From a virus, in the IMG/VR virus record IMGVR_UViG_3300030107_003133, positions 1 to 25,581 of that record: a stretch of 25,581 nt of DNA; one strand, written 5' to 3'. Of the stretch, positions 6,670 to 25,581 are shown piece by piece. The position numbers were made by a program, and so were the translations under genes. The notes beneath the pieces are model-generated. The model had not been told where the DNA came from and did not search any database. It was given only the letters and a program-made list of their open reading frames with translations. Every line of letters begins with the position of its first letter. Position 1 is the stretch's first letter.

Positions 6670-9600
6670 TTATGCTAATGCAATTGCCCTCAAGTCTCTT
6701 ACCCTTGGAGGATATGCCTGATTTGTAGATGTTCCAACAATCTTAATGCTGAAGTATCTAAATTCAGGTAAATTATCTATGGTAAATTCATAATCATTAA
6801 ATGGAATCTCATCACTTCCATGTGCCAGTACATCTGTCTTAGGAAGTTTCTTATCTGGGAGACCACTGTTCTTAGCAATATCAATAATATTACCGTTAAC
6901 ATCAAAGTTACCATATCCAGGGAATGGATAATAAATTGGATCAGATTCAACATCATTAGATATTGAATAGAATGCTCTAATATCACTAAATGTGTTTAAG
7001 TAAGCAGCTAAAAGAACCTTAATGGAAGTAGCAGAATTCTCTAATGCAATTGGTTTATTTGCATAAATGAATGCTGTTGGATCTTCCGTTATTGTAGATG
7101 CTCTAGAATCACCTGCATAATCACTAATTGGTTGGTTAACTCTGTTACTAATGAGTACCATACCAACTCTGTCTAAGTCAATAACTGGGGATATATCACT
7201 ATCAGCAGTTGATAATGTAAATACCACTTCCATTGACTTATTGCCTGGACGAGTATCTAATTGCTGGAGTTCATTAACTCTTGAAGCAATCATTCTTGGT
7301 GCTTCAAGGAATGTATCCTCATCCATATTGATAGGAACAGTTTCAGTCTCAACAAATGAAGACTCAGGTCCATCAATACTTGTTGCAGTTGTACTTACTA
7401 ATTCAGCTTTAATTGATGTATTTGGTAATATCATCGACTGAACAATTGGTTTAACTGCTTCAAACTGGATGTTTTGTGTTGCATTAATAATTGCACCACC
7501 AGCAGATTTAGACTCATTAATGAATAGTTTGGGGAATCCAATACCAGTACTTCTATCAGTACCAGTGTTAGCAGACATGTCTACTTTCAAATAATAAGAA
7601 TCAAGAGTTATAGATCTTGTAGGTGTTGCATCTTGCAATGTATGTGTCTTATTAATACGTCTCAAGGAGACACCATTAACTTCATACTTCTCAACTGGAG
7701 TCTTAACAGGATATGTAAATGGAGTTGTTTGATCAACAGATCTAGTAATTCCAGTTAACTGACCAGCAGAAATTCCTGTGTAAGAGATAATCTCTTCATT
7801 GATTTTAATATAACCAGGGTTAGTAGCAGCAACTCCAACATTTTCAAAGGTTTCAAATCCTGCAGTATTAGCAATACCAATAGCAGTAGAACTAGAGTTT
7901 GTATACTCTGCAGATAACGTAGTTGGTTTAGAATCTGTTAAAACGTTACTAATAATAACTTGGTTAATTGGTTCATGCATACCGTGGTTCTTATGGTTCA
8001 CTTTAATATGCATTCCATCTTCCTCTAAAGAATTTAGAGCATAATCACTAATTGTAACGTCAGATCCAAATCCAACAGATACCATCGTAGTAATTCCAGT
8101 AGTTGCACTAATGAATTGAAGTGGTTTTGTAGAACTAATCTCAAAATCACCTTGAACATTATCTAAAACTAATTCATTAGTTCCAGTAATAGCACCTAAT
8201 GATAGTTGCATATTTCTACCCAACTGATCATTACCAATTGTAGGTACTGTTAGAACATCACCAACTTGATATCCAGAACCACCAGAGTTAATGGTTGCAG
8301 CAATAGCAACTCCATTTGAACCACTAGCAGAACCGACAGTAATATCAGCAGTTGCGTTCTTACCAATTCCACTAAAGGATGCTAAAGCAACATTAGAGAA
8401 TGTAAATTGATTACCATCTGAAGGAGTATAACCAATACCAGCATTGATAATACTTAAGTCACCTGTTGCAGAACCACCTGCACCAACATAATCTGCTTGA
8501 GCATTACCATTCTTCTGAATAATTGTATTACCTAGAATTAATCCAGACGTATTTACAATATCATCAGTAGATACAAGTAACTTCTTAGAATTGAATTCAA
8601 ATGCATCATTAACTAGAGTAGCAATTTGGTTATTACCTTTTGCTAGTTCTGGGTTAAAGAATGATACAGTTCCAACTTCTTCTTTAAACTTAGCACCATA
8701 AAGTGTAAATTTAAGATCTTCATACTGACTTGGGTTCCATGTAGATCCGTTCTGTGACTTGAATAGAGAACCAAGCATTGGTTGTGCAGACACAATTACT
8801 TGTCTTGATTCTGGTTGTAGTAAAGTACTAACATCAACTTCACCCATTCTAGAGATCCAAACAGTATATTCGTTAGACTGTGATAGTAAAACGACTGAAT
8901 GATCAGTTCCAGGTTGTAAGTAAACTGGTGATGGGAATGTAATTGTAGTTGGTGTTCCACCATCTACTGATTCAATAATATCCTTAGGTTCAACAATTAC
9001 TTCACCAAATGGATATATCTCTTCCGAAGGTACACCAGCAATCATAGGTCTTAATTGGACCGTTACAGGTAGAAGAGGATCTTTTGTTCTGAAATATACT
9101 TCTATTTCAGTAACGAATAATCCACCACCATTCTGTACTGAGAATGATTGAGCTAGTGGGTCTTTACCACCCCTTGCAGGACGTGGTGCTGGACGAGGAG
9201 GATCAGGTGGACGTGGAGGTCTAGGAGGTCTTGGAGGGACAGGAGGAGTACGCTGAGCTGCTCTTCTTGCCTCAAACCTTGCTATCGCTGCCTGAGTAGT
9301 TGTTAGACCACCTGTTGGAGGTCTCTGAGGAGGAACCTGTGGTATAGGTCTTGGAGGATTTGGGGGTGGTGGTGGAGGTGGAGGTGGGGGTGGTAGCGGT
9401 ACGACACTAGTTTGTGTACTTGTCGTTACTTGCTGTGTAGAGGTAACCTCTGTTGCAGGTCTGGATTCAGTAGCAGCAACAATATCAAATCTAGGTCTTC
9501 TTGTAGACCTGATTGTTTCTTGCATATTGTTGAGAGTACCTTGAGCAAAGTATTGCTCTTCACCAGAAGTTCCTGTCATTCCACCAATAGTACTATTAGT

Positions 9601-12600
9601 AGAACTACTTGTTAATCTGAATATTTTAATTCCAACTTCAAATGATGGATTAGATGGAACATTTGGATCTGGAATATAGAATGATCCAAGAACTGTTCCT
9701 ACCTGATCAGAGAATACTCTTACGTTTGTAACCTCTGCTTCACCATTAGCACCACGTAATCTCATTCCAGTTCTTAACCATCCACTGTAGAGACCTTGAG
9801 TATTATCTGCTAAAGATACAGTATCTACATTAAGGAGAACAGAAGAACTTGAATATGTTTCAGGAATAGTATACAAGTCATCATAAGGACTAGTTGTATA
9901 TACATCTGTTGGTGCAGAGATTGGTCCAATTTTATGATTAGACTGAGCAACTCTGAAAGTTAACCTAGGAGTAGATTGACTAGTACCTGTAACAGCACCT
10001 GTTGCCATTGTTCCTGTAATTAATTCACCAACTTGGAATGTACCACTAATCATCCTAATTTCTAAAAGTTTAGGTATGATAAATGCATTTACATCCTGTC
10101 CATCAAAGAATCCATAAAGTCTTGTTAATGGTTTGAACTTACGTCCAGTAAATTCAATATTCCTAGACCTCATGAATGCAATAATTGAGGTACTTACTAC
10201 CTTATCACCTTCATTTACAACATCAGTTTGCTCACTAATTCTTAATCTATTACCACCTCTAGTTGAAGTACCAGTTCTAGTAGTTGTAGTTGTAGTTGTA
10301 GTCTGGAAGTTATTTGTAGTTACAATTGCACTACCATTGTTTCTAGATGTTGATCCAGTCTGTATTGTTGCTGAATTTGTAGTAGCACTAGATCCTGTCC
10401 ATGTGGTGTTCCATGCACCCCATCTAACTGGTCCTAAACCAGACTGTGGATCATAACCATCAAATTCTAATTGTCTACGTGTTTGAGTATAATTATCAAC
10501 CTCTATTCTCTGAGGTGCTAATCTAACTTGGTCAATCCAAATATCAGATGATGGGAATAGTTGAATATTACCAGTATAAGTTGTTACAAGATATGGAGTA
10601 ACATTCTCAACTCTTGTTGCAAATACTTGTTTAATCTCAGGTTGTGATTCATAATCAAGTGTTAATAATTGACCTGTTCTTCTAATACCAGATCCAACTA
10701 AGTCAGTAACAAACCTAGGATCAGCAGTAGCACTTGCTGTTGTACCAATTCCAATTAAAGACTTAGAACCAATCAATAAATCAACTTCAGTTGTATAGTG
10801 TGTTGGTCTTAATTCTAAGTTTACTGGGTCAACACTATTAGTTACCCTACCTGGTTTTAACTGAGTTGATGTTCCACTAAAGTTATCAACATAGATACCA
10901 GACTTAAATCTAGTTAAACCAGCATTATCAGGAATAAATAGACTTTCTGTATTAGATTCTAGAAGAGAAAGAGCAGTGTAGTACTCTAAATTCTGAATTC
11001 TATTCTCCAATAATGCAATATCTTGCATTCGATATCTCTTATGAGACTTAAGAAGTATCTCTATATTCTCAGCATTACAAATATATGGTGGAAGTTTACA
11101 TGTTGCAACTTCTAATGCATCTTCAATAGGAATTGGAGGTAATGGATCATCAGCAGGAATACCCTTAATTAACTGGAAATCACCATCCTTAGTCAAATAT
11201 AATCTGTCAATTCTTGGTTGATAATAAGAATACTGTATTCTGATTGATTCATCAGACGCTAGAATATTTTTAGCAGAGTTAGTAGCATTAGTAAATACCC
11301 TTGCATTATACTCAAATGGAGATACTCCAGTTGAATCTAAATTAAAATTAGTTACTCTTGGTCTAATATCAATAACATCAGTCAATCTTGTACCTTCTCT
11401 AATATCAGGTAGCACACAGAAATCAATCTGATCATAAGAAGAAACTGTAGTAATATCACCATCATCAGTAGAGGCAAACTCTGCAGATTCAAAAATAATT
11501 CTTAACTTCTTACGAGGATCTTTACTATTAGTCTTCCTTACCAATCTAGAATAATCACAAATAGTTTCTCTTTGTCCACTATCTAAAATAAATCTATCTT
11601 TAATATCAGGATCACCTGGATCAAAGTCATTAATAGTTGCTGTAATTCCACTTTCAGTAAAATTAACTTGCTCATTTAATTCTAATCGTAAATCACTTAA
11701 ATATACAAATGATGCTGTTTGACTATTAATACGTTCAATATACAGACCAATAGCACCTGTTGTTTGCCCAACAAACTCTTCACCAACAATCAAGTCATCC
11801 ACACGTCCAGTTGGTCCATTCATGTTAAACAGACTAACTGTTGGTAATAATGGATCAGCAGTTGCACCAGATTCAAATACACCATAAACTTTGGTTACAT
11901 CAGGTTCTCCAAGACAAATTTCTTTATCCTGAACTCTTAATCCATATCCATAAGATCCATAAGATAATCCATCATTTAAAGTAGTTGTTCCAATACCTGA
12001 AGTTACTAATTTAGATTTATTAACAATAATAGAATTAGTTCTAACCTTATTCTTAACCTTGTTCTTGATATTAATCTTTTGGAGTGTAGCAACTAATCTT
12101 GCAGATCCAGCAGTAGCAGATAAACCAAATATCCTTAATTCTCTACCACCGTTAGTAAAACGAAGTTTATCTGCTGTTAATTCTTCAGTAGTACCAGCAT
12201 CATTAACTAAAATATATCTTTCTTCATCATAAGGTAAGAATGTTTCGTTCTGACCAGACTGAACTGTATTAGTAGCATTAGCAGTAATAGTTACGTCATA
12301 CTCCTTCCTAATTGTAATAGATGACTCTGTTACATCAACATCTGAGATCCACTTCTTAGGTAGAGGTGTATATAAGGTGTTGTCAGAAGAAGATTGGAAT
12401 TTAGCACCAATTAATTGGAAATCTGTTACATTAGTTTGTGCTGTAGGTAATCCACCATCACAAATACCACCTACAGTGTTAATACCTACAATTCTAATTG
12501 CATCTGCATTAACTATAGAATCAACAATAGCAAAACTTCTAACTGGAGTTGCACCAGTATTAATTGCTGGGTTTGTATATGATACAAGATCACCCTTCTT

Positions 12601-14391
12601 TATCTTCTGGAAGAATGAAATGCCAGTACTTGTAACTGTTGATAAACCAGGTGCTGTACCAATTTTAGGAGCAATTTGACATGTTCCAAAATTAAGTTTA
12701 GATGAATTCTTAACATCAGCGTTATATGTACCAACACCAACCGAACTATTAATAGACTTTACATCTGAGATTGAATATGCCGTTACAGCAACAGCAATTC
12801 TATTATCATCAATACCATTGAATATTAGTTTTTCACCAGGTGTAAATGAACCAACTGAGTTATATGCAGTAACAATACCAGTTGTAGTAGCAAATCTTAA
12901 ATGAGCAGTAGCACCACTCGCTTTACCCTTAATAAGTGTTGGTAAAGATAGAGATACTGCTTGGTTTACTGAAAGTTCTGTATATGGTTGAATATCATAT
13001 AAAGTAGCATCCCATTCATTTGTTGCAGGAGTTGCTGAAGAATATGATCCAGATTCTAATGCATAATCATAAACCCTTGCTACACCAATCTCTTTACCAG
13101 CAGCTACATGATCTACTGTACCAATTCTTGAATCTCTAAGACTGATATTTGCAGTTGTAGTAAAACCGATCCTTGGAGCACCATATGCCCTATTAACAGT
13201 CAAAGTTGGACCAGTAAAGTAATTTACTGCTTGATCCTTTAATGTTTTCTTAGTTCTTGTCTTCTCAAAATCAAGATATACAACATTTCTTACAGGTACT
13301 TCAAATCCTCTAATAAATGCTTTACCTGGAGATATTTTATAAGTTCCTAAGTCTTTACTTGGAGTGTTATTACTATATGTTAATTGATTAGCATTAAATA
13401 CACCATTATTACCTTGCTTGTCATTTAAGGACTCTTTTGCTGCAATCTGAAATGGTTTTACATAGAAATCACCAGCATGACTATATGTTCTTCTTGCTAA
13501 TTCTTCACCAAGTTCATTATACCTAATCTTATCATCAATATGAGATATTGATCCACCACGGACAATCAATAATTCAACAAAGTTCTCATTCTTCTCAGAA
13601 TCTAATGACTTTTTAACTAATTCTGCTCTTACCTGTAGTCTATCAGCACCAGGAGCAGCAAAGTTATTAAAACCTTTTGCATTATCAGTAAGAGATGAAT
13701 CTTCACTTGAAGATATAATCTTTTCACTTATTTCTAATCCAACTCTATATGTTGGTGTATCGCTACGTGCATCTAATATTAGTGTTTGTTCTTGAACTCT
13801 TACAAAAGTTCCTCTCAAAAAATAAACACCTTCAGATAAGAATACTGCAGAACCAACACTTGAAGCGTCTGAAGGAGCAGTTTTTGCACATCCTTGTCCT
13901 GCTTGTAATGATATATTATTAGTTTCTTCTACAATATTTTGATCTAGTAATAGAGTTTCATCATCATCAAATTCCTCTTTATCATTAATTCCTTGTCCAA
14001 GATAAGAAACTATTAATGTAACATAACCTCTTTCAGACTGATTGCTCATTGCATGAACAATCTTAGCCTTTACACCAGAATTTGAACCTCTAACTATCTC
14101 ATTTATTAAAACATCCCAATACTTTTTAATATCAATACCAAGAAATGTAGTCTCAACCTCAACAGTAAAAAGTGAATTATTATAGTTAACTTGTCCTGGA
14201 ATTACACACGACCCTTCCTTAAACAGATGAGTACCAACTTGCTCTACCTGATTCTGGAGAATAGATTGTAATGTGGTTAATTCTCTTGCCTGAATTGGCA
14301 ATCCAGGTTTAAATAATACCTTATAAAAATCCTTACTTACATCAAAGTCGTCAAAATAAGGCGATACATTGAGATTAATTTCTTGTGCCAT
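6670..14391 (-). CDS. Giant DUF4815-type virion structural protein (2,573 aa), probably baseplate/fibre region
   Basis: The N-terminus (NVSPYFDDFDVSKDFYKVLF, then KPGLPIQARELTTLQSILQN and KEGSCVIPG) is the signature I associate with DUF4815, a domain of large tail proteins in marine T4-like phages. Further along are a Thr-run (about 1360), RSRNIEFTGRKFKPLTRLYG followed by FFDGQD (about 1410), a polyproline/Pro-Arg hinge (about 1663-1740) and DPLAQSFSVQNGG with a following beta-rich domain. Two Gly-Tyr modules lie near 1990-2085, and a C-terminal domain carries KINEEIISYTGI and VSLRRINKTH. No enzyme motif is seen. It sits between gp8 and gp13, where T4 has gp9, gp10, gp11 and gp12, so a baseplate-periphery or fibre-attachment role is likely by position. 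The start at 14391 is 17 bp after the gp8 stop, with TAAGGTAA upstream overlapping that stop. Confidence 0.88.
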   Translation of the reverse strand: MAQEINLNVSPYFDDFDVSKDFYKVLFKPGLPIQARELTTLQSILQNQVEQVGTHLFKEGSCVIPGQVNYNNSLFTVEVETTFLGIDIKKYWDVLINEIVRGSNSGVKAKIVHAMSNQSERGYVTLIVSYLGQGINDKEEFDDDETLLLDQNIVEETNNISLQAGQGCAKTAPSDASSVGSAVFLSEGVYFLRGTFVRVQEQTLILDARSDTPTYRVGLEISEKIISSSEDSSLTDNAKGFNNFAAPGADRLQVRAELVKKSLDSEKNENFVELLIVRGGSISHIDDKIRYNELGEELARRTYSHAGDFYVKPFQIAAKESLNDKQGNNGVFNANQLTYSNNTPSKDLGTYKISPGKAFIRGFEVPVRNVVYLDFEKTRTKKTLKDQAVNYFTGPTLTVNRAYGAPRIGFTTTANISLRDSRIGTVDHVAAGKEIGVARVYDYALESGSYSSATPATNEWDATLYDIQPYTELSVNQAVSLSLPTLIKGKASGATAHLRFATTTGIVTAYNSVGSFTPGEKLIFNGIDDNRIAVAVTAYSISDVKSINSSVGVGTYNADVKNSSKLNFGTCQIAPKIGTAPGLSTVTSTGISFFQKIKKGDLVSYTNPAINTGATPVRSFAIVDSIVNADAIRIVGINTVGGICDGGLPTAQTNVTDFQLIGAKFQSSSDNTLYTPLPKKWISDVDVTESSITIRKEYDVTITANATNTVQSGQNETFLPYDEERYILVNDAGTTEELTADKLRFTNGGRELRIFGLSATAGSARLVATLQKINIKNKVKNKVRTNSIIVNKSKLVTSGIGTTTLNDGLSYGSYGYGLRVQDKEICLGEPDVTKVYGVFESGATADPLLPTVSLFNMNGPTGRVDDLIVGEEFVGQTTGAIGLYIERINSQTASFVYLSDLRLELNEQVNFTESGITATINDFDPGDPDIKDRFILDSGQRETICDYSRLVRKTNSKDPRKKLRIIFESAEFASTDDGDITTVSSYDQIDFCVLPDIREGTRLTDVIDIRPRVTNFNLDSTGVSPFEYNARVFTNATNSAKNILASDESIRIQYSYYQPRIDRLYLTKDGDFQLIKGIPADDPLPPIPIEDALEVATCKLPPYICNAENIEILLKSHKRYRMQDIALLENRIQNLEYYTALSLLESNTESLFIPDNAGLTRFKSGIYVDNFSGTSTQLKPGRVTNSVDPVNLELRPTHYTTEVDLLIGSKSLIGIGTTASATADPRFVTDLVGSGIRRTGQLLTLDYESQPEIKQVFATRVENVTPYLVTTYTGNIQLFPSSDIWIDQVRLAPQRIEVDNYTQTRRQLEFDGYDPQSGLGPVRWGAWNTTWTGSSATTNSATIQTGSTSRNNGSAIVTTNNFQTTTTTTTTRTGTSTRGGNRLRISEQTDVVNEGDKVVSTSIIAFMRSRNIEFTGRKFKPLTRLYGFFDGQDVNAFIIPKLLEIRMISGTFQVGELITGTMATGAVTGTSQSTPRLTFRVAQSNHKIGPISAPTDVYTTSPYDDLYTIPETYSSSSVLLNVDTVSLADNTQGLYSGWLRTGMRLRGANGEAEVTNVRVFSDQVGTVLGSFYIPDPNVPSNPSFEVGIKIFRLTSSSTNSTIGGMTGTSGEEQYFAQGTLNNMQETIRSTRRPRFDIVAATESRPATEVTSTQQVTTSTQTSVVPLPPPPPPPPPPPNPPRPIPQVPPQRPPTGGLTTTQAAIARFEARRAAQRTPPVPPRPPRPPRPPDPPRPAPRPARGGKDPLAQSFSVQNGGGLFVTEIEVYFRTKDPLLPVTVQLRPMIAGVPSEEIYPFGEVIVEPKDIIESVDGGTPTTITFPSPVYLQPGTDHSVVLLSQSNEYTVWISRMGEVDVSTLLQPESRQVIVSAQPMLGSLFKSQNGSTWNPSQYEDLKFTLYGAKFKEEVGTVSFFNPELAKGNNQIATLVNDAFEFNSKKLLVSTDDIVNTSGLILGNTIIQKNGNAQADYVGAGGSATGDLSIINAGIGYTPSDGNQFTFSNVALASFSGIGKNATADITVGSASGSNGVAIAATINSGGSGYQVGDVLTVPTIGNDQLGRNMQLSLGAITGTNELVLDNVQGDFEISSTKPLQFISATTGITTMVSVGFGSDVTISDYALNSLEEDGMHIKVNHKNHGMHEPINQVIISNVLTDSKPTTLSAEYTNSSSTAIGIANTAGFETFENVGVAATNPGYIKINEEIISYTGISAGQLTGITRSVDQTTPFTYPVKTPVEKYEVNGVSLRRINKTHTLQDATPTRSITLDSYYLKVDMSANTGTDRSTGIGFPKLFINESKSAGGAIINATQNIQFEAVKPIVQSMILPNTSIKAELVSTTATSIDGPESSFVETETVPINMDEDTFLEAPRMIASRVNELQQLDTRPGNKSMEVVFTLSTADSDISPVIDLDRVGMVLISNRVNQPISDYAGDSRASTITEDPTAFIYANKPIALENSATSIKVLLAAYLNTFSDIRAFYSISNDVESDPIYYPFPGYGNFDVNGNIIDIAKNSGLPDKKLPKTDVLAHGSDEIPFNDYEFTIDNLPEFRYFSIKIVGTSTNQAYPPRVRDLRAIALA
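8140..8375 (-). other. Shared ATADI-GGSGYQxGDVL module in the DUF4815 protein
   Basis: This stretch (residues about 2005-2084) reads GKNATADITVGS, then GGSGYQVGDVLTVP, then LGRNMQLSLGAITGTNEL. The giant protein carries the same order at about 16845-16605: GRGATANIEINI, GGTGYQPGDVLFV, SQNMEFTVGAISGPEVL. The match over about 75-80 residues is clearly beyond low-complexity similarity and marks a common domain in two neighbouring genes. Confidence 0.7.
9171..9401 (-). repeat. Polyproline and Pro-Arg low-complexity hinge, G-rich on the plus strand
   Basis: Two proline-rich blocks are encoded here. The first (9403-9353) includes an uninterrupted run of 11 Pro (PLPPPPPPPPPPPNPPRP). The second (9250-9171) is a PPRPPRPPRPPDPPRPAPRP tract. 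An Ala/Arg-rich helix (TTQAAIARFEARRAAQR) lies between them. The plus strand here is a run of ggtggt/ggaggt units. The protein segment is probably an extended, stiff linker between the N-terminal two thirds and the C-terminal part. Confidence 0.85.
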
Positions 14392-14408: not shown

Positions 14409-15992
14409 TTAGAATTGCAAAATAACCTTAATATCTTCTCGCTGGTTAGCAGATCTTGTAATAGAAGGTCTGTTATCAACGTAGAGCACTGTACCAGTGT
14501 ATTTTTCTACTTCAGGGTTAGCAACACCCTTTATAAAAGTCTGTCCCAAATAATATGTTCTATTATTTATTACAGTACTTATACCAGGATTATTATCAGA
14601 TCCGAATCCTGAATCTATGTATAAGTCTTTTGTACCACCTGTAATTTTAAGTTCTCCACCTGCTATTGGTTCTCCAGTAAATTTATTAAGATTAAAACCA
14701 TATGTAGGAGATGTTTTTTGAGTACCATCAGTATTAAATCCAACTAAAGATCTATCCTGCCAATATCTAAGAACACCAGTAGTTTTATCATATGATACAA
14801 CTCTTCCTACAGCAGTTTGTCCTGTTCCAACTTGTTGTGTAACATAACTGTTATTTGCAAAAGTTGTTGTTTTATAATCATCATCATTAGGTGATAAACC
14901 CTTCAATACTACTCCTTGAAGAGCACTTGCTCTATCATCAGTAATAATAGAAGTAGATTCAAATGCCTGTGGATTTTCAATAATTCCAATTCTAGCAACT
15001 TTTGTTCCTGTAACAAAGTCTGGGTTTGCATCATCATTCTCAATTCTTGAGAAGATCAAAACGTTTGATGCTCCTAATTCTTTGTAAATATCATATCCAT
15101 GACCACCTTGAGGTGGAATAATAACATTAAATATTGGAGTTGTACTACCAACAGGAACGTTACCTCCAACCAAATCAACAGAACCATATGTGTACCCACT
15201 ACCACCATTTGATATGGTAATTGATTCTATTTTTGAATCATTGTTAACAACAATAGTACATTCTGCACCAGTTCCATCACCTTTAATTGGAACTCTTGTA
15301 TATGTTGTATTAGCAGGACCAACTAAGAATCCTCTATTAGCAATAGTAGCAACTTTTATTTGACCACTAGTTTTTGCATTATTCCTTATAGGTGTAAAAT
15401 CAGCATTAGTCTCCCAATCTACAGGAAGAGGAATAAAGTTAAGAGAGTCAAACTTAATGATATCACTAGGACTAATAGTGTAAAGATACTTCCAAACATA
15501 TCCATCACCAGAAGTACCAGCAACACGAGGTTCTAAATCAGTAAACTTAGGTTCATCCAAAGATGGTTTACCATTTGGGTTTTCTGGATCAATTCCATTG
15601 TTTAAACAGACGTATACTCGAAACTCGCTGTTTACAATATAGAAGTTAGATGAATATAAACTAGTTTTATTTGATGCATCGGATAACTTATTTCTATTAA
15701 CATCATGCCTATACATGTCATAAATGGTTGCTGATGCCCAAGACAACTTCCGAACAACAGGTCTAATGTCATCCGCAGAGATCTTTTTCATTGCGATCAT
15801 TGTATCCCAATAAAAATGCTCGTCGTCGAAACAATCTCTAGGAGCAGGAGGACTTGTATCCCAATCCGCTTTATTCTCCGTAGCATTAGGGAGACCAATA
15901 AAGGTATAAAATGAATCTGTTGATGATCGAATTTTGTCTATAAAAGACCTTGCATTCTTGATTCTCAACTGATCAGTTATAATCGCAGCCAT
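14409..15992 (-). CDS. 8: Baseplate wedge subunit gp8-like, with inserted Gly-Tyr module
   Basis: The 527-residue protein matches T4 gp8 (334 residues), a dimeric baseplate wedge component. Shared features are ARSFIDKIRSSTDSFYTFIG (14-33), SGDGYVWKYLYTISPSD (161-177; T4 PGDGYVWEYLFEIPPD) and the C-terminus YTGTVLYVDNRPSITRSAN (498-516) then QREDIKVILQF (T4 HSGEMIYMENRPPIIMAMDQTEEINILFTF). The extra length is mostly in the middle. It includes a Gly-Tyr unit (ITISNGGSGYTYGSVDLVGG, 258-277) and GQTAVGRVVSYDKTTGVLRY (391-410), modules also found in gp14 and the giant proteins. The start ATG follows a 33-bp spacer with a late-promoter-like octamer and no strong ribosome binding site. In T4 gp8 is also placed among the wedge genes, after gp7. 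Confidence 0.92.
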   Translation of the reverse strand: MAAIITDQLRIKNARSFIDKIRSSTDSFYTFIGLPNATENKADWDTSPPAPRDCFDDEHFYWDTMIAMKKISADDIRPVVRKLSWASATIYDMYRHDVNRNKLSDASNKTSLYSSNFYIVNSEFRVYVCLNNGIDPENPNGKPSLDEPKFTDLEPRVAGTSGDGYVWKYLYTISPSDIIKFDSLNFIPLPVDWETNADFTPIRNNAKTSGQIKVATIANRGFLVGPANTTYTRVPIKGDGTGAECTIVVNNDSKIESITISNGGSGYTYGSVDLVGGNVPVGSTTPIFNVIIPPQGGHGYDIYKELGASNVLIFSRIENDDANPDFVTGTKVARIGIIENPQAFESTSIITDDRASALQGVVLKGLSPNDDDYKTTTFANNSYVTQQVGTGQTAVGRVVSYDKTTGVLRYWQDRSLVGFNTDGTQKTSPTYGFNLNKFTGEPIAGGELKITGGTKDLYIDSGFGSDNNPGISTVINNRTYYLGQTFIKGVANPEVEKYTGTVLYVDNRPSITRSANQREDIKVILQF

Positions 15993-16019: not shown

Positions 16020-16027
16020 TATTTATT
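16020..16027 (-). promoter_or_regulatory. Putative T4-type late promoter (AATAAATA) upstream of gp8
   Basis: In the longest intergenic spacer of the window (33 bp) the minus strand reads T-AATAAATA-AAAC, with the first AA belonging to the TAA stop of the giant gene. The octamer ends 28 bp before the gp8 ATG, so a start about 6 nt downstream leaves a leader of about 21 nt. It matches T4 TATAAATA at seven of eight positions and is identical to the site at 156-163. It could drive the whole gp8-to-gp16 set. Confidence 0.55.
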
Positions 16028-19000
16028 ATGTAATATAACCGTCATATTTAAGCGGATTTCGCCGTCTTATCAATGGGTTAGTTCCAATACCAGTTTGACT
16101 GGTTCCATGAACCGCTTCAAATGCCTGTTTATTAGACATTCTAACGGTGAAGTTCACTTTACCCCAAGTGTAACTTCCATAAAATGATGTGGTTCCAAAT
16201 CCAACTACATTATCAAAACTAGAGATCTTAGCAATAACTGTTGTAACTGTTGTTGCTATACCTACTGTACTACCACTTATCTCTGATGGAATAAACCTAG
16301 TATTATGAGAGTAGTCTGCAACTTCATAAGTTGCATCCATACAAGTAGTTCCTATACCAAGAACAGAATTATCTCCTCTTAATGTAGTAACTGTGCCATT
16401 TACACCACTACCAATAATATTAAACAAATATCCAGTTTGAATTCCACTTTGTACTAAACCAAATCCTGATTTTAATTTGGAGTTCTGTGGTATATAGAAA
16501 TCGAATGTTATACCAGTTGACGCAACACCTGCAATAGAAGTTGTACCAACACCAACAATTATTCCATAATCACCTTCATAAGTTGCTTTAGGTGACTCTT
16601 CAACCTTTCTTGAAGGTGATGACATTAGAACTTCAGGACCACTAATAGCACCAACAGTAAATTCCATATTTTGTGATAGTGCCCATCTCCTATTTGTAGT
16701 ACCTAATCCAACATTGTCATAAGTATCAACAAATAATACATCACCAGGTTGATAACCTGTTCCACCATCAACTACCGCAACTGAACCAATTTGATAGTTA
16801 ACAATATTAATTTCAATGTTAGCAGTAGCACCTCTACCCATTCCAGTCTTAGTCTTCAACTTAGCATTTTCAAACGTATTAGTTCCATTTTCTAAGAATG
16901 GGAATCCAATACCTTGCTGACCAATTGCTAGTGATGTTAAAGGACCATAAATGTAACCTGTTCCACCACTACCAACAACAATAGATGTAACTATTCCTGC
17001 AGTTATAGAAGCAGTTGCAGTAGCACCATCAGTACTTAATACTTCATTAAATGGTTTCTGAATTGTTACTGATGGTGCTGCAGTATAACCAATACCACCA
17101 TTAGTTATATTAACAGATTGAACCGATCCACTACCAATAATAGTAGTTGCAGTACAAGTATCAGTCTCTTCAGAATGTAAAATCTGTACTTTTTCACTAT
17201 CTAATACCAACATCGCTTCCTTAGGATCATCAAATAGAGATCTTACAGACCAAACAAATGCGGATGTTGAATTTACACCAACATTCTCAAGTATATTTGA
17301 CTGTGGATTAATAATTGGTTCATAATAAACTCTATCCTTAGATATGAAGTTATTATCAATAATCTTATCAATACCTTGCTTAGACCAAGAAATTGGTCTT
17401 GCTAACAGCTCATTTGGTGTTACACCTTGACCTGCATAGTTATTACTTATAATAGTATCTGCAGATTTAACATCCATTACAAGACGTTCATCTTGATTAA
17501 AGGTTACATCTACATCACTATAGAGTTGTACATCATCACCAACTTTAACAGTTGGAAGAACGTCAACAGTCTTAACGTCAATAGATTGAGTACCAGTGTA
17601 CATTAATAGTTTAGCCTTATCTCCAGTTGTAGTGAATCCTGCAACACCACCCTTAGGTGCTTCAGAGAATCTCAGAGTACTACCTCCAGTAAAGGTATAA
17701 CCTTCTCCAGGTGTTTGTAGAACATCATTAACAAATACAAGTAAATTAGACTGTAAGTTAATTCCAGCATTTGCTCTTGCAAAGAATGAAATCCTGTCAC
17801 CATTAAGTGCTAATGGGAATAGTCTTCTATCACCATTAAAGTATGGAGTGATATCATCAAGAACTAAGAAGTCTCCAACATTCCAACCAGAGAACTTAGA
17901 TGCATAAGTTTCATCAACAGTTAACTGGAATTCTTTATAAGATCCAATTCCAACAAATTGATGTGCATATCTCTTACCAACAGGTGCTACACCAACGTTC
18001 ATCTTAATAGTTGTTGGAGTAGTAGAAGCAATACCAACACCACCATAAATTGGGTCAGTTTTTCTTGGATATGGATTTATAGAACCATAATTATCACTAG
18101 AACAACTAAAGAGTATTGATTCATTAGCAAGTCTAACTCTTTCTCCTGTATGTAAATTATGCTGTCCTACAGTTAGAGTTAACCACCCAGTAAATCCATT
18201 ATAATCAGCATCCATCACTTTAAATCTACGTTCAGTAGGTGCTTTACCAATATTCAAAGTAATTGTATCAGCAGTTGTTGATCCAACAGATACTGCATTA
18301 TTATGATAAGGATCTGACGTACTGATTCCAGATTTACCAACATTAATTGTAATACTAGTTGGAGTTGTTGCTGCAATACCTATAGTTGCATTATTTGCAG
18401 GATCAGTTGTTCTTGGATAAGAATGTTCAGTACGATGATCATCCAAATCACAAGTAAATGTTAGAGATTCAGTGAGAATACCAACAGTATTAGAACCTGC
18501 AACCAACTTATGAAGAGAAGTTCCAACATTAACTGTAATAGTATCTAAAGTAGTTGCTGCAATTGCTACATTACTTAATCCATGAATAGGATCTTTAGTA
18601 CGAGGATAAGATTGAACACTGGCATAATTATCTCTAGAACATGTAAATGCTAGAGAACCAGTAGCAATACCAATTGTATTGGAAGTTGTAAGATTATGAT
18701 TAGACTTACCAACAAGAACCTTGAATGTTTTTGCTGTTGTTGATGCAATAGCAACCGTTGATAGATTGTGTATTGGATCTGTTATACGTGGATAAGTTTT
18801 ACTTGTAGCATAATCATCTCTAGCACATTTGAATGCTATAGAATTAGTAGCAATACCAATTGTATTGGAAGTTGTAAGATTATGATCTGCAATGAATGTT
18901 AATTCCAATTCTCCACTCAAAGGATCATAAGTTGCAAAATTAGGACTTAATTTAGTACCACCAGTCCAAACACCAACGGTAACAGCATTTGTTAAAGTAC

Positions 19001-22000
19001 TTCCTGCTGCATCAAATGTATGTGCATAATTGTTATTAAAGTTTAATACCAAATCACCACTAACTGGATTATATGAAGCATCTCTAGGAGTTAATTTATC
19101 TCCACCAGTCCAAACACCAACGGTAACAGCATCATCTAAATTACTAGATCCTGCTATAAAATTATGTCCATAATTGTAATTAAAGTCTAATACAAGATTT
19201 CCATCAACACCATTATAAGATGCTCCTGTAGGTTTAAGAGCATTACCAGTGTTAGGAGTAATAGCATCATCAAGTGACTTTACAAACTTATGTACATTCT
19301 TAGTAACACGAGGGTAACTATGCTCAGTTGCATAATCATCCATCTCACACTTAAATGTAAGTCCATTATCACTCAACCTAATAGATTCACCTGCCTTACG
19401 TAAACCATTTGAAGTCGCAGAGACAAAGGTATGTGGGTAATTACCACCTGTTCTTACTGCATTTGTTGCACTGCTAAGTCCAGCGACAAATCTATGATCA
19501 GAATCAGTTCCAATACCAACAAAGAGTGTAATTGTAGTGTTACCTACACCAGTAATAGGTGTACCAACTCCAGCAATAGGATCAGTTCCTGCACGAGGAT
19601 ATTGGTGAGTAGTTGCGTAGTTGTCCTGAGAGCACTGGAAGTTAATACTATTAGGTGCAATCAATACTGGTTCTCCTGCCTTCTGTAGACCATTTGTATA
19701 GGCAGAGACAAAGGTATGTGGATTGTTTATACCTAAAGTAGCAGTTCCAACTCCAACATTGAAGGTATCATCAGTAACACCAGAGATAACAATAAATTTA
19801 CCACTAATTGGGTCAGTAATAGTTGAACCAGTACCTACAGAACGAGGATAAGACTTAGTACCACCACTACCAAAATTACAACTGAATGATATTGATCCAT
19901 CTTCAAACTTAACCCTATCACCATTAGAGAATCCGTGTGAAGGAACCGTACATGTCATTATACCCGCCATTGGGTCATATATGGCATTAGTTACTGTGTG
20001 ATTACTTGGTCCTGTAAGATTATGCTCTCCAATTGCAAGAGTCATATATCCAGTGGTTGAATTATATTCAGCACCAACAGGTGTATAGTAAACAGTGCCA
20101 GATGCACCAACCATAACTTCAATATTACTTGTTACTACACCAACAACAGGTAACCACTTATTGCTGCTAGGATCAGTTGCTCTTGGATAAGAATGGGTAG
20201 TTGAATTACCATCCATTGCACATGTAAAGCTTATAGAATTATCATTAAATTTAATTCTATCACCAACATTAAGTGCATTAAGTGTTGTAATACCTGATAA
20301 GGTTAATGTCATACCACCAGTACCAGCATTATACAATGCATGAGTCACTGTATAGTCCTCAGAACCCTTCAATCCATGATTAGGGATCGTAAGTACCATT
20401 TCACCAGTTTCAGGGGTATATGTAGCGTTATTGACACTATGACCAACAGTAGCAGATGTACCAACATTAACAGTAATTGTATTTGTATCCTTTGCAGTAA
20501 TTGCAGTTACACCATAACCAAGAACAGGGTCACCAGGTCTTGGATAAGAATGGAGAGTTGCCTGACCATCCATCATACAATTAAATGTAATTGCACCAGT
20601 TGCAAATCCAACAGTTTGACTAGTTGTATATGGATGACCTGCAATGGTTAGAACCATATCACCAGTTGTTGGATTATAAGTTGCATCAGTAGGTGTAAAG
20701 TTTCCAACACCTGTTACTGATACTCCATTTGTAAGAGAACTTACCCATGTATGATCATATCCACCACCACTTATAACAGCACTATTTGCAGCACCAACAA
20801 ATGTATGTGGATAACGACCACCAGAGACTACAGGTAAAACTGCATTTGATGTCTTAGTTTTAAAGGTTGGAATACCAACAGTACCACCAATAGCAACTGT
20901 TAAAATATCATCTGTACCATAATTATATCCAAAATCTGTAATCTCAAAATCTGCTACACCACTTACATTACTAACTTCAACATCAACAGTAGCACCTGTT
21001 CCAAATCCTATCTTAGAATTCTCAGAATATATTAAAGGAATATTCTCATATCCAAGAGGTGAATCAAAACGTACAATTACATCTTGAGTAACTTCACCTG
21101 CTCTCTTATAGAAATGAGGATAAGGTGATGAACCAGAATCACACTCAAATGTATACTCATCAATAATATTAGTTACTGCAGTTCCATCAAATGCAACATC
21201 CTGACTGGATGGCATATTATTAACTGCTCTAGGTGCAAGAATAATTTCTTCAATATAACCACCAGATTTATAGAATGTTGGAACATTAGCAACACCAACA
21301 TTTATCTCAAATTCTGTATTAGAATTAATCCTCGATACCTTAGTTCCAGCATAAGTTGGATCACCTGCTCTTGGATAACGATGTTTAGTAGCATTACTAT
21401 CTTGAGAACATGTGAATACTAATGAGTTTGTAGCAACTTTAACTGTAGTTCCTTTACTTAAACTATGTGAACCTATAGTCAATGCCAAATTACCTGTTGC
21501 TGGGTCATAAGTTGCTCCAGATACACCATAAGGAATAATAGTTGATATACCAACATCAACAGTAATAGTATCAGCAGTTGTTGATGCAACACCAATAACC
21601 TTTCTATAAATTGGATCAGTTGCTCTTGGATAAGCATGCTCACTACCATGTTTATCCATATCACAAGACAACTTGATAGATTCTGTTGCAATTCCAATTG
21701 CATTTTGAGCATGTAAAATACCATTAGAAGTAGCAGAGACAAAACTATGAATTCCAGTATTTGTAGATGGAATACTCTCTAATACATTAACTTCAAACTT
21801 ACCTGCACCAACATTAGATACCTTTAACCAATTTGTTCCTGCTGGATCATGTGGTCTTGGATACTTATGATCCGTAGCGTAACTATCTAATTCACACTTA
21901 AATGTAAATGATTCATCTACAAACTTAACATAATCACCATTAGCAATACTATGTCCAGGAACAGTAACTGTCATAATACCAACAGAACCATCATAAGATG

Positions 22001-25000
22001 CTGTTGTTGCAGTAGTTACTGCTGCACCAGTTAAATTGTGATTAGGTATTGTTAATACTAAGTTACCATTAGCAGCAGAATATTCTACATTAGTTGGAGT
22101 ATACTTAGTATTTGTTCCATCAACACTAATAGAATCATTATCTGCACCAACAAATAGATGATTATAAACACCACCAGTATGAAGAACAGATCTACTTATT
22201 CCACCAGTTGTAGCAGATACAAACGTATGAACACCAACGTTTGTAGATGGAATAGTATCTAAGACCTGAACATCAAAAGTATCTGTAGTGATATTGCTAA
22301 CAGGAATCCACTTATCATAAATTGGATCAGTTGCTCTTGGATAAGAATGATTACCACTACCAGCAGTACAAGTAAATGTTAATGCACTTTGAGCAATTCC
22401 AACATAATCACCTGATTGGAATGGGTGATTAGCAACTGTAAGTGTCATTACACCTGTATTAGGGTTGTATGCTACTGCAGTAGGTGTAAATGTATCTGTA
22501 CCATCAAATGTATGGGTAAACTGATGCTTAGGACCAGAAGGACCAACATCTAAAGTAATAATACCGTTGTTATGAGTAAGATTATTAGGAGTTGATGATA
22601 CAAATGTATGAGTACCTGTGTAAGTAGATGGAAGAGACTCCAATACTTGAACCTTAAAGGTATTAACAGTTGTATTAGCAATTCCTACCCACTGACCATA
22701 AATTGGATCATTCTTTCTTGGGTAAGAGTGTGTTGTAAGATTATTATCTTTATCACATGTAAATGTTAATGATTTTTCTGCAATTCTGATCTTATCACCG
22801 TTATGGAATCCATGACCATTAATAGTAATAGTCATAATACCCGTTGTTGGGTTATATGCTGCAGTCCTTACTGTATGTTCTGTTCCATCTGCAATAATTG
22901 CAACAGATGTATCTGTAATAGTATCTCTATTACGTGGATAAGTATGAACTTCAGTACTCATACCACAAGTCATTCCCAGGCCAGTTAATGCAATATCAGT
23001 ACCAACTTTAAGTTTATGACCTAGTAATACACTACCACCACTTACATAAGTTGATGGAATAGTAGATATTCCTGCATTAAAGACTAATGTATTAGCATCT
23101 GGAGCAGATATAAGCTGGAAGGTATCACCTGTTGGAGAGTTTTGAGCATCTCCTGGGAAGATATCGGTTGTAATACCAACTTGAACAACACCACCAGAAT
23201 CCCATGTATGTCTAATAGTTGTTACACCAACATTAGTAGTAAAGGATGTTGCTGCTACACCAATAGTCTTAAATGAATATCCTTGTGATCCATCTGGGAA
23301 GATAGATGTAGTAAGACCAGCATTAACAGTACCACCAGACACATATGTATGTGCAAGAGTTGAAATACCAGCGTTAAAGGTAAATTGATTTGATGTAGGA
23401 ACAGAAAGTGCAGTAAATGTATATCCTTGAGATCCATCTGGATATACTGAGTTACCAAATGCACAGTTAAGACCAATATTATCCAATCTAACTTCACTAC
23501 CAACTCCAATAACACCACTAATAGATGTTGCAGTAGTTACAGTACATAATCCAGTTAAATTGTCATAAGTAAAGTTATTAATACCAAATTGCTGCCCATA
23601 TCCTTCAGCACCACCAACAGGACATACAAACTTTAATTCTCTTAGTTTAACATCATCAGTAGCAGTTAAACCATGATTACCAACAGTAAAGATTGTTGCA
23701 ATACCTGTTGTATGATCATATTGAGCACTATGTACTGCAAATGTTTGACCATAACCAACACAGGTCATAGCAATACCAGATAAGGCAAATGTTCTACCTA
23801 CTGCAGTCTGTTTAACAAGTCCGTGAGGAATTGCTGTAGTGATAGTTCCAATACCAGTAGTATTTGTATAAACAAAGTCGCTAACGTTAACAGAAGTAAT
23901 TCCTGTTGTTACAGTCATAATACCAGTGGTATTATTGTAAATTGCGTTAGTAATATTAATTGGTGGATAGTAATCACAAGTAAATGCTGCACCAACAATA
24001 GTAATCTCTTCACCAAGACTTAAACCATGTCTTTGAGTAGTTTGTACAGTTGTTATACCTGTAATTGAACTATAACCAACATTAATGATATTTTTTGGTT
24101 TATAGAATCTTTCAACCTTATTGATAGTTACATCAGTAACATGACCATCAGTTATAGTGGCATTACCAACATAAGTGTAACTTGCTATTCCTACACTTCT
24201 AGTTTGAATAGCAACCCCAACAGTTTGTAACCCAGATCTATATCCAGATCCAGTTAAACCAATACCAATTGCAGTAACAGTACCAGCAGAGGATACAACA
24301 GCAGTACCACCTGCAGCAACTAGAGGTTGGAATCCATATCCATCAGTAGACCCAACACTAACAATAATTCCACCTCTTGGAATATTATTAACATTAATAT
24401 CGTTATTTTTACTATAATCACTTACTTCACCATTAAATCCTAATAAAGTTTGTGTATCACCGTTAGTTTTTTCAATCTTATAATCACCAGGAATAGTAGT
24501 AACTTGGTTACCTAATCTTTGTGGACCTTGGAAGATATCATTTATTAGAATAATAGCATTTCCTGCTTCAAGTGTAGTAATATCTTGTCCATTATTTTGA
24601 AGAATAAATGATGTTGTAATACCATTAAACTTGGTTGATAAGTCATCAAATACAACGTTTTCAGCATATGCTTTAACAAAACTAGTTGTAAATGCTTCAT
24701 TAATTGAAGATCTTAAGAATACTCTACCACTAAATCTACTGCTAGTTGTAAGTCCCGTATAATCAATATTATTACTAGTACCAGTTGTTCCCATTCCAAC
24801 TGGAATATCACCCCACATTCCTTCAGAGAAATGAATATCATTATCAACGATATTGTAATTACCCGTATATTTTGTAATAGTTGAGAATGCAGCATGGGAT
24901 GCATCTGTAGTACCCATCCATCCTCTTCTAATAGTCAATAAGTTGTTTGGTTTGTCAACACCAGCAATAAGCATTATCTCGTCTTCTACCTTGACTAAAT

Positions 25001-25581
25001 CACCACTGAAGATTGATGTAATACCAGTTACCCCTATTTGTGTAGAACCAACACCAACTGTTGCAGAACCAATAGAAAGAGTATTTGCTGTAGACACAAT
25101 TGGAGACTGTATTGTTCCATTAACAGTTACCAATAATCTATTATTTGGTTCCTTTCCTCTAAATCTATGAGTACTACCAATACCAACAGAATTAAATCCA
25201 ACAACTACAGGATTAAATCTGAGAGAATCAGTTGCAGATGCAGCAACTTGTATTCTTTGGTTATCTAATTTAACAACATGGAATGATCCAGGTAATTTAG
25301 TAGTAGTTCCAATACCAGGACCAAAGTCAGTAGCAACAATGTCAATTGCATTTGCAAAGTCATTTCCAGGTGGAATATACTCAATCTCTTCACCTGATAC
25401 AAAGTAATGATTACCAAGATTAACTGATTCCTCACTTAAATCAACAATAGTATCATCACTACCATCAAAGCTTTGTTCAAAGATTGGATCACCATCACAG
25501 AATAATCCAAAGTCTCTCTTCTTACCATCAAAATCTACACTAAAATCATCAATAGATAAGACTCTATTACCAATAAATTCT
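16026..25581 (-). CDS. Giant repetitive virion structural protein, 5' end beyond the window (at least 3,184 codons)
   Basis: The frame is open from the window edge (first full codon 25580-25578) to the TAA at 16028-16026. A start at the TTG at 25133 would be false: the 149 codons upstream contain no stop and encode plausible virion sequence, such as NHYFVSGEEIEYIPPGNDFA and GIGTTTKLPGSFHVVKLDNQ. The protein is Thr/Gly/Val-rich and nearly Trp-free, consistent with extended beta structure. Layout: lead-in domain and INNETM-like module; degenerate C/GY units (about 24100-23100); about 16 Cys-x2-Asp...His-x-Tyr-Pro-Arg units (about 23010-17990); a domain with LFPLALNGDRISFFARANAG followed by INLQSNLLVFVND (about 17830-17700); Gly-Tyr modules; and the tail KQAFEAVHGTSQ. 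It precedes gp8, the T4 gp7 position, but I see no gp7 similarity. A baseplate or fibre-like surface role is inferred from size, repeats and position. Confidence 0.85.
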   Translation of the reverse strand, partial: EFIGNRVLSIDDFSVDFDGKKRDFGLFCDGDPIFEQSFDGSDDTIVDLSEESVNLGNHYFVSGEEIEYIPPGNDFANAIDIVATDFGPGIGTTTKLPGSFHVVKLDNQRIQVAASATDSLRFNPVVVGFNSVGIGSTHRFRGKEPNNRLLVTVNGTIQSPIVSTANTLSIGSATVGVGSTQIGVTGITSIFSGDLVKVEDEIMLIAGVDKPNNLLTIRRGWMGTTDASHAAFSTITKYTGNYNIVDNDIHFSEGMWGDIPVGMGTTGTSNNIDYTGLTTSSRFSGRVFLRSSINEAFTTSFVKAYAENVVFDDLSTKFNGITTSFILQNNGQDITTLEAGNAIILINDIFQGPQRLGNQVTTIPGDYKIEKTNGDTQTLLGFNGEVSDYSKNNDINVNNIPRGGIIVSVGSTDGYGFQPLVAAGGTAVVSSAGTVTAIGIGLTGSGYRSGLQTVGVAIQTRSVGIASYTYVGNATITDGHVTDVTINKVERFYKPKNIINVGYSSITGITTVQTTQRHGLSLGEEITIVGAAFTCDYYPPINITNAIYNNTTGIMTVTTGITSVNVSDFVYTNTTGIGTITTAIPHGLVKQTAVGRTFALSGIAMTCVGYGQTFAVHSAQYDHTTGIATIFTVGNHGLTATDDVKLRELKFVCPVGGAEGYGQQFGINNFTYDNLTGLCTVTTATSISGVIGVGSEVRLDNIGLNCAFGNSVYPDGSQGYTFTALSVPTSNQFTFNAGISTLAHTYVSGGTVNAGLTTSIFPDGSQGYSFKTIGVAATSFTTNVGVTTIRHTWDSGGVVQVGITTDIFPGDAQNSPTGDTFQLISAPDANTLVFNAGISTIPSTYVSGGSVLLGHKLKVGTDIALTGLGMTCGMSTEVHTYPRNRDTITDTSVAIIADGTEHTVRTAAYNPTTGIMTITINGHGFHNGDKIRIAEKSLTFTCDKDNNLTTHSYPRKNDPIYGQWVGIANTTVNTFKVQVLESLPSTYTGTHTFVSSTPNNLTHNNGIITLDVGPSGPKHQFTHTFDGTDTFTPTAVAYNPNTGVMTLTVANHPFQSGDYVGIAQSALTFTCTAGSGNHSYPRATDPIYDKWIPVSNITTDTFDVQVLDTIPSTNVGVHTFVSATTGGISRSVLHTGGVYNHLFVGADNDSISVDGTNTKYTPTNVEYSAANGNLVLTIPNHNLTGAAVTTATTASYDGSVGIMTVTVPGHSIANGDYVKFVDESFTFKCELDSYATDHKYPRPHDPAGTNWLKVSNVGAGKFEVNVLESIPSTNTGIHSFVSATSNGILHAQNAIGIATESIKLSCDMDKHGSEHAYPRATDPIYRKVIGVASTTADTITVDVGISTIIPYGVSGATYDPATGNLALTIGSHSLSKGTTVKVATNSLVFTCSQDSNATKHRYPRAGDPTYAGTKVSRINSNTEFEINVGVANVPTFYKSGGYIEEIILAPRAVNNMPSSQDVAFDGTAVTNIIDEYTFECDSGSSPYPHFYKRAGEVTQDVIVRFDSPLGYENIPLIYSENSKIGFGTGATVDVEVSNVSGVADFEITDFGYNYGTDDILTVAIGGTVGIPTFKTKTSNAVLPVVSGGRYPHTFVGAANSAVISGGGYDHTWVSSLTNGVSVTGVGNFTPTDATYNPTTGDMVLTIAGHPYTTSQTVGFATGAITFNCMMDGQATLHSYPRPGDPVLGYGVTAITAKDTNTITVNVGTSATVGHSVNNATYTPETGEMVLTIPNHGLKGSEDYTVTHALYNAGTGGMTLTLSGITTLNALNVGDRIKFNDNSISFTCAMDGNSTTHSYPRATDPSSNKWLPVVGVVTSNIEVMVGASGTVYYTPVGAEYNSTTGYMTLAIGEHNLTGPSNHTVTNAIYDPMAGIMTCTVPSHGFSNGDRVKFEDGSISFSCNFGSGGTKSYPRSVGTGSTITDPISGKFIVISGVTDDTFNVGVGTATLGINNPHTFVSAYTNGLQKAGEPVLIAPNSINFQCSQDNYATTHQYPRAGTDPIAGVGTPITGVGNTTITLFVGIGTDSDHRFVAGLSSATNAVRTGGNYPHTFVSATSNGLRKAGESIRLSDNGLTFKCEMDDYATEHSYPRVTKNVHKFVKSLDDAITPNTGNALKPTGASYNGVDGNLVLDFNYNYGHNFIAGSSNLDDAVTVGVWTGGDKLTPRDASYNPVSGDLVLNFNNNYAHTFDAAGSTLTNAVTVGVWTGGTKLSPNFATYDPLSGELELTFIADHNLTTSNTIGIATNSIAFKCARDDYATSKTYPRITDPIHNLSTVAIASTTAKTFKVLVGKSNHNLTTSNTIGIATGSLAFTCSRDNYASVQSYPRTKDPIHGLSNVAIAATTLDTITVNVGTSLHKLVAGSNTVGILTESLTFTCDLDDHRTEHSYPRTTDPANNATIGIAATTPTSITINVGKSGISTSDPYHNNAVSVGSTTADTITLNIGKAPTERRFKVMDADYNGFTGWLTLTVGQHNLHTGERVRLANESILFSCSSDNYGSINPYPRKTDPIYGGVGIASTTPTTIKMNVGVAPVGKRYAHQFVGIGSYKEFQLTVDETYASKFSGWNVGDFLVLDDITPYFNGDRRLFPLALNGDRISFFARANAGINLQSNLLVFVNDVLQTPGEGYTFTGGSTLRFSEAPKGGVAGFTTTGDKAKLLMYTGTQSIDVKTVDVLPTVKVGDDVQLYSDVDVTFNQDERLVMDVKSADTIISNNYAGQGVTPNELLARPISWSKQGIDKIIDNNFISKDRVYYEPIINPQSNILENVGVNSTSAFVWSVRSLFDDPKEAMLVLDSEKVQILHSEETDTCTATTIIGSGSVQSVNITNGGIGYTAAPSVTIQKPFNEVLSTDGATATASITAGIVTSIVVGSGGTGYIYGPLTSLAIGQQGIGFPFLENGTNTFENAKLKTKTGMGRGATANIEINIVNYQIGSVAVVDGGTGYQPGDVLFVDTYDNVGLGTTNRRWALSQNMEFTVGAISGPEVLMSSPSRKVEESPKATYEGDYGIIVGVGTTSIAGVASTGITFDFYIPQNSKLKSGFGLVQSGIQTGYLFNIIGSGVNGTVTTLRGDNSVLGIGTTCMDATYEVADYSHNTRFIPSEISGSTVGIATTVTTVIAKISSFDNVVGFGTTSFYGSYTWGKVNFTVRMSNKQAFEAVHGTSQTGIGTNPLIRRRNPLKYDGYIT
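16605..16845 (-). other. Shared ATANI-GGTGYQxGDVL module in the giant protein
   Basis: This is the counterpart of the module at 8140-8375. GRGATANIEINI, VAVVDGGTGYQPGDVLFV and QNMEFTVGAISGPEVLMSS occur in the same order and spacing class. Two further Gly-Tyr units lie just upstream (ITNGGIGYTAAPSVTI, about 17120-17060; GSGGTGYIYGPL, about 16980-16945). The C-terminal part of the giant protein is therefore built from the same parts as gp14, gp8 and the DUF4815 protein. Confidence 0.7.
18661..18886 (-). repeat. 40-bp perfect direct repeat inside the giant gene (186-bp offset)
   Basis: Bases 18661-18700 (beginning gtagcaataccaattgtatt) recur exactly at 18847-18886. The offset of 186 bp is 62 codons, so the frame is kept. 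Both copies encode HNLTTSNTIGIAT and mark two adjacent YPR units. The identity at synonymous positions points to a recent duplication or gene conversion. Confidence 0.9.
18958..19131 (-). repeat. 30-bp perfect direct repeat inside the giant gene (144-bp offset)
   Basis: Bases 18958-18987 (beginning ccaccagtccaaacaccaac) recur exactly at 19102-19131. The offset is 144 bp, or 48 codons, again in frame. The repeated peptide is AVTVGVWTGG, within two linker units (ASYNPVSGDLVLNFNNNYAH and relatives) that lack the Cys/YPR half of the full repeat. Confidence 0.9.

Follow-up and report, generated by a model that had tools for sequence, protein, structure and literature searches.

The window analysed here comprises positions 1 to 25,581 (25,581 nucleotides) of IMG/VR virus record IMGVR_UViG_3300030107_003133 and carries a long repeat array, with one invariant cysteine per unit, in a single protein, P0001. 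P0001 is encoded on the minus strand by an open frame at 16026..25580 (3184 residues in the window, the 5' end being cut by the window edge) and is assigned, from homology and gene order, as a giant gp7-type baseplate wedge protein of a T4-like cyanophage. The repeats are predicted to form a tandem array of small barrels resembling the endosialidase and FCCH barrels, each with an added hairpin bearing the invariant Cys. With moderate confidence, the array was interpreted as a chain of independent barrels that extends the wedge, the Cys being a structural residue of the hairpin.

An initial annotation of this DNA had described about 16 Cys, Asp and His repeats in a beta-rich virion protein at 17990-23010, and had proposed an alignment of the units and a profile search. 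Both were run. The unit profile gave 15 strong units in P0001 between residues 852 and 2531 (17988-23027, at most about 20 bases from the limits first given), with domain E-values of 4.7e-8 to 1.6e-29. These 15 C...YPR units and one degenerate C...YPHFYKR unit (Cys 1480) make up the 16. All lie on the minus strand. Unit 1 (22863..23027; Cys 872, CGMSTEVHTYPR) is the weakest and lacks the Asp. It is followed by unit 2 (22638..22826; Cys 942) and unit 3 (22257..22439; Cys 1071), the latter a short-loop CxxG form. Units 4 (21777..21965; Cys 1229), 5 (21546..21734; Cys 1306) and 6 (21291..21479; Cys 1391) were also used for structure prediction. The degenerate unit, identified from the sequence around Cys 1480 (FECDSGSSPYPHFYKR) at 21081..21173, gave no significant profile match. 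Unit 7 (20457..20648; Cys 1668) and unit 8 (20103..20285; Cys 1787) precede unit 9 (19743..19949; Cys 1901), a CxxG form with an insertion after YPR. Units 10 (19512..19700; Cys 1983) and 11 (19248..19415; Cys 2078) follow. In unit 12 (18705..18896; Cys 2252) the His is replaced by Lys, in unit 13 (18519..18704; Cys 2314) by Gln and in unit 15 (17988..18173; Cys 2493) by Asn. Units 12, 13 and 14 (18333..18518; Cys 2377) are joined head to tail.

These three head-to-tail copies (18333-18896) define a minimal unit of 62-63 residues. In relatives, units commonly recur every 85 residues, because many start with one extra beta-hairpin (ATYDPATGDLVLTIG). Spacing from Cys to Cys ranges from 58 to more than 150 residues. 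The motif position holds 16 of the 25 Cys residues of P0001. Cys, Tyr and Pro are present in 16/16 units, Asp at Cys+3 in 12/16 and His two residues before Tyr-Pro in 11/16. One Cys, one Asp and one His do recur in most units, as first described; they are not equally conserved, the Asp and the His being optional. Related Cys stretches that lack YPR (Cys 535, 607, 653 and 706) lie at 23391..24083 on the same strand, with weak profile matches at 23622-23744 and 23976-24158. Between units, a separate 144-base tandem duplication (18899-19186, 76% identical) encodes two copies of a spacer without Cys. This spacer (H.F.A......AVTVGVWTGG.KL.P..A.Y.P.SG.L.L.F) is unrelated and of another type.

Conservation was measured on 1891 distinct units from 256 loci (effective number approximately 640 at 70% identity). 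The Cys column was masked in the search profile, so that Cys was not favoured. Cys24 was found in 100% of the 1891 YPR-type units, the lone non-Cys being a truncated hit. The Cys thus stands well above most of the unit in conservation. In the initial annotation, free replacement of the Cys in relatives was to count against its part in metal binding or bonding; such replacement was looked for and was absent within YPR-type units. Next in order were Pro36 (99.5%), Tyr35 (97%), Arg37 (95%), His5 (93%), Asp40 (93%) and Phe22 (91%). Asp27 was present in 85% of units, with Gly in 10%, and His33 in 66%, with Lys in 25%; Cys24, Asp27 and His33 occurred together in 62%. Three features go beyond the initial annotation: His5 in the opening part of the unit, the Arg and later Asp of YPRxxD, and the upstream Cys units without YPR.

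Between orthologous units of close relatives, Cys24, His33, Tyr35 and Pro36 were unchanged (His change 0.00), so that units with His, Lys, Gln or Asn each keep their residue. Among relatives, the unit at Cys 1071 occurs both in the short-loop CxxG form and as CxxD. Of the sister units without YPR, 88% had Cys at this position, the others having Thr or Val (a small sample, effective number approximately 23). These replacements are as expected for a packed position.

Co-variation between columns was used to place the conserved residues. Direct couplings at 21-34, 21-32, 23-32 and 23-29 describe an antiparallel hairpin that joins columns 20-23 to columns 32-35. One face of this hairpin carries 20/22/24 (Leu, Phe and Cys) with 31/33/35 (Thr, His and Tyr); positions 21/23/32/34 are polar and variable. 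Asp27, Thr/Ser31 and His33 are mutually coupled, with odds ratios of 42 (Asp27-Thr/Ser31), 17 and 6.5 (Asp27-His33), and Arg37-Asp40 has an odds ratio of 23. The former set may form a network of hydrogen bonds that caps the turn. Arg37-Asp40 may be another local pair and would fix the YPR loop. The top couplings, Cys24-Pro36 and Cys24-Tyr35, were set aside as near-invariant columns whose signal came from truncated hits.

Structures were predicted with AlphaFold2. One window unit (unit 6, 21285-21539) with 113 relatives gave a small beta-barrel with a predicted local distance difference test score (pLDDT) of 92.6 and a predicted template modelling score (pTM) of 0.80, in line with the beta-rich structure first proposed. 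Strands were placed at 8-12, 17-21, 40-43, 52-55, 66-71 and 76-80 of the 85-residue fragment. A model of three consecutive units (4 to 6) repeated identical strands three times (pLDDT 83, pTM 0.56); by these scores, each barrel is well defined, but not the orientation of one barrel to the next. The hairpin derived from couplings agrees with the strands of both models (columns 20-23 and 32-35). In the model, Cys24 closes one strand of the hairpin and leads into a helical turn of three residues that ends at Asp27; the Asp lies in the hairpin loop and His-x-Tyr-Pro on the second strand. Couplings and predicted strands place Cys, Asp and His at the same end of one hairpin, as had been anticipated. 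They are probably close in space in the modelled barrel, because all lie within one ten-residue hairpin. The YPR-DP element had been suggested as a turn between strands. This holds for Arg...Asp-Pro, which forms the following loop; Tyr-Pro ends a strand.

The predicted structures were searched with Foldseek. The phi92 endosialidase (4hiz) matched the single-unit model with a template modelling (TM) score of 0.62, a root mean square deviation of 2.6 Å and a probability of 1.00 (E-value 0.18), and the K1F endosialidase with a TM score of 0.60; identity to endosialidase barrels was 9-14% over 82-85 residues. The FCCH domain of ubiquitin E1 (2v31) matched with a probability of 0.93 and an E-value of 0.065. 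Predicted structures of other cyanophage tail proteins matched strongly. Among 114 units, sub-threshold Pfam matches were obtained to E1_FCCH in 5 (best E 0.0047) and to End_beta_barrel in 4 (best E 0.0035), and these profiles point to the same fold as Foldseek. No unit reached the curated Pfam cut-off for PF12195 or PF16190, and whole P0001 had no PF12195 match. No usable relative emerged when solved structures were searched with the profile and with the whole protein. An iota-carbonic anhydrase hit (85-residue profile, E 0.0004) was rejected, its domains scoring only 4-9 bits and covering half of the unit.

P0001 was matched to phrog_2885 (baseplate wedge subunit) with an E-value of 1.4e-248. 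Residues 1138-3174 align to residues 3015-5172 of P-SSM2 gp7, through the non-repeat C-terminus. The gene order on the minus strand, from 25580 down, is P0001, gp8, a DUF4815 protein, gp13, gp14, gp15, a small protein and the gp16 small terminase. In P-SSM2 the order is gp25-gp6-gp7-gp8, and gp8 likewise directly follows P0001; the gp6 side of P0001 lies beyond the window, and the placement of gp6 was read from P-SSM2 and S-SM1. The gp7-type assignment of P0001 follows from this synteny (before gp8 and gp13-gp16) and from the P-SSM2 gp7 alignment. A sequence search of P0001 against the PDB gave no match at E<=1, and so none to the solved T4 gp7. In S-SM1, the protein SSM1_102 (T4-GC969) sits between gp6 and gp9 and has two strong units (E 6.7e-26 and 1.6e-23). 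T4-GC969 of S-SM1 was detected by mass spectrometry in purified virions (PMC3037559). A virion protein had been proposed at the outset; the location is backed by experiment for this homologue, and for P0001 itself would hold by analogy.

These results can be combined as follows. Each unit would be an independently folding small beta-barrel of approximately 62-85 residues, of the endosialidase-barrel/FCCH fold class. Some 15 to 30 such barrels with variable linkers would make up a long, flexible extension to the gp7-type wedge in T4-like marine cyanophages, most likely an arm or scaffold bearing or spacing other baseplate or fibre parts; weak multivalent glycan binding by this extension is possible. 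The Cys side chain would lie on the conserved inward face (Leu-Phe-Cys), beside the helical turn capped by Asp27-Thr31. It would face the strand with His/Lys33 and Tyr35-Pro36, and Arg37-Asp40 would fix the loop that follows. We infer that the Cys is a structural hairpin residue and not one of three metal ligands.

Several points weigh against this interpretation. A structural Cys is usually swapped at times for Ala, Ser, Val or Thr, and this never occurred among the approximately 640 effective sequences; a packing role does not usually call for invariance this strict. Burial of the Cys is deduced from strand alternation only. The Foldseek E-values are weak (best, for the single unit, 0.18 to an endosialidase barrel). 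The arm or scaffold role is drawn solely from gene position and domain architecture, and the Tyr-Pro-Arg loop is conserved beyond the needs of a plain spacer.

The evolution of the array was examined by comparison with relatives. Ratios of nonsynonymous to synonymous substitution rates (dN/dS) were approximately 0.2-0.3 and alike in units and linkers; judged by these ratios, the repeat array is under purifying selection. Diversifying selection, expected of a host-range determinant, was looked for by dN/dS in units and linkers and was not found. Two relatives (L002 and L004) lack 221 residues that hold two of the window's units, including unit 12, and DNA copies at 18583-18700 and 18769-18886 (the unit 12-13 region) are 83% identical. 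Unit number appears to change by in-frame gain and loss. Proteins with the module have 2 to 33 units, and relatives differ in unit number (13 and 15). Against relatives L005, L007 and L011, the synonymous divergence of P0001 (16026-25580) was 0.26-0.32 in the unit region and 0.5-0.7 in the flanks; against L004, that of the unit region exceeded the flanks. The array looks mosaic, as if exchanged by recombination.

The module was found in 318 of the phage records searched. Viral and bacterial contigs were scanned with a single protein as query. Among bacterial and archaeal genomes only four contigs matched, all from marine metagenome-assembled genomes; these are probably phage contamination. In phages Sf-CH1b and S-WAM2, glutaredoxin and CpeT-like bilin-lyase genes lie just upstream of the Cys-repeat gene (L091 6003-8559 and L093 4652-6919). 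The products of both act on thiols; their presence here is probably a coincidence within a variable region.

Among other explanations, the one that survives best is an array of glycan-binding barrels, each a weak lectin-like module for cyanobacterial polysaccharide or lipopolysaccharide, with avidity set by the number of barrels. It is considered unlikely. The best solved fold match is an endosialidase beta-barrel, and in the K1F tailspike one of the three polysialic-acid sites lies in this barrel, which is also a hotspot for host discrimination (PMC12632334). The differing unit number among relatives, up to 33, would also fit. However, the array shows purifying selection and no diversifying signal, and at 9-14% identity a likeness of fold is not a likeness of ligand. 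Most of the conserved residues (Pro, Tyr, Cys and the Arg-Asp pair) are structural, and no known receptor binder occupies the gp7 position.

The invariance of the Cys, stricter than packing usually requires, could instead mean that the thiol is chemically used. A reactive Cys in each barrel (2 to 33 sites) would link covalently, or bind a soft metal or ligand with Tyr-Pro-Arg, and would lock the baseplate arms of oceanic cyanophages, possibly as a redox switch. If so, the switch would act between the reducing cytosol of the host and oxic seawater. We regard this as quite improbable. In another proposal, a disulfide or other Cys-centred bond would join each barrel to the equivalent unit of a neighbouring chain after release into oxygenated seawater, giving a zipper that stiffens the baseplate or fibre. 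The single, never-replaced Cys per unit, and the concentration of P0001 Cys residues at the motif position, are in its favour. Against it, the spacing between Cys residues gives no fixed geometry for bonds within a chain, and links from one unit to the next along a chain are ruled out as a general rule by that spacing. Strand alternation also places the Cys on the hydrophobic face. The barrel was predicted confidently from a single unit without any bond; on this model the fold needs no crosslink such as the Cys-centred bond first suggested. In coliphage T4, gp7 is present as one copy per wedge; if the same stoichiometry applies here, no in-register partner would be available. Crosslinking of this kind is held to be more doubtful still.

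Metal coordination by Cys24, Asp27 and His33 of each unit, giving a string of approximately 15 sites, had been put forward initially. The three residues do lie at one end of one hairpin, Asp27 and His33 co-vary, the full triad is present in more than half of the units, and the His is kept as His between orthologous units. The Cys is, however, retained in every unit whether the His is Lys or the Asp is Gly. Asp is coupled more strongly to Thr31 than to His33, which reads as a turn cap, and there are three ligands only, the sole invariant fourth nearby being a Tyr. The site is also unlike the HxH iron sites known from fibres (PMC11705849). A uniform Cys/Asp/His metal triad, supported neither by conservation (62% complete) nor by co-variation, is the least probable of these explanations.

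Taken as a whole, the window is a structural gene module from a T4-like marine myovirus. Directly after P0001, gp8 (PF09215) lies at 14409-15992 on the minus strand. It is followed at once, on the same strand, by a giant 2573-residue DUF4815 protein (6670-14391), which has long poly-proline stretches (PPPPPPPPPPNPPRP...). Between gp15 and the small terminase, a small open reading frame (2538-3167, phrog_8014) may have a fold like that of 2OG-Fe(II) oxygenases. A further open reading frame adjoining the small terminase (162-2225) has a weak DUF3008 match, a low-complexity stretch rich in Gly, Asp and Asn, and a Cys/His cluster (CGCDTHESHQECGDDCDCS).

No Pfam family was found for the unit, and sequence searches of the PDB gave no solved relative. 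No paper with the motif string was returned by a literature search, and the units, their function and their structure were not described in the literature searched. The module makes up much of one of the largest virion proteins in hundreds of sequenced marine cyanophages. The present analysis supplies its unit length, residue pattern, predicted fold and virion location by homologue, and isolates a sharp question: why a single Cys is never replaced while its neighbours are.

The array was compared with known systems. The HxH iron-binding motif of tail fibres, described in T4 gp37 and Alteromonas phage R22Y with a proposed role in metal binding (PMC11705849), resembles P0001 in the presence of repeated His motifs in a marine phage tail protein. 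It differs in that the consensus of the unit contains no HxH (the only conserved His residues being at columns 5 and 33), its His is replaceable and its Cys is invariant. The FCCH domain of E1 (PF16190; 2v31) is likewise a small beta-barrel, unlike the unit in being a domain of a eukaryotic enzyme with no common function. PHROG families 1276, 701, 18802 and 5342, annotated as unknown function, virion structural protein or tail fiber protein, already contain the repeats in their profiles (1276 and 701 each match 14 stretches of P0001) and carry no description of function, fold or conserved residues. The gp7 baseplate wedge initiators of cyanophages P-SSM2, P-SSM4 and S-SSM7 (T4-GC 107/397/1328) and T4-GC969 of S-SM1 share with P0001 the unit and the gene position between gp6 and gp8/gp9; they differ in the number (2 to 33 per protein) and arrangement of units. 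The endosialidase beta-barrel (PF12195; phi92 4hiz, K1F 1v0e) is like the unit in predicted fold (TM 0.60-0.62) and in its location in a phage tail. In contrast to that barrel, the unit of P0001 has no enzymatic neighbour, is present in tandem rather than as a single copy, and carries the extra C-x2-D...YPRxxD hairpin loop.

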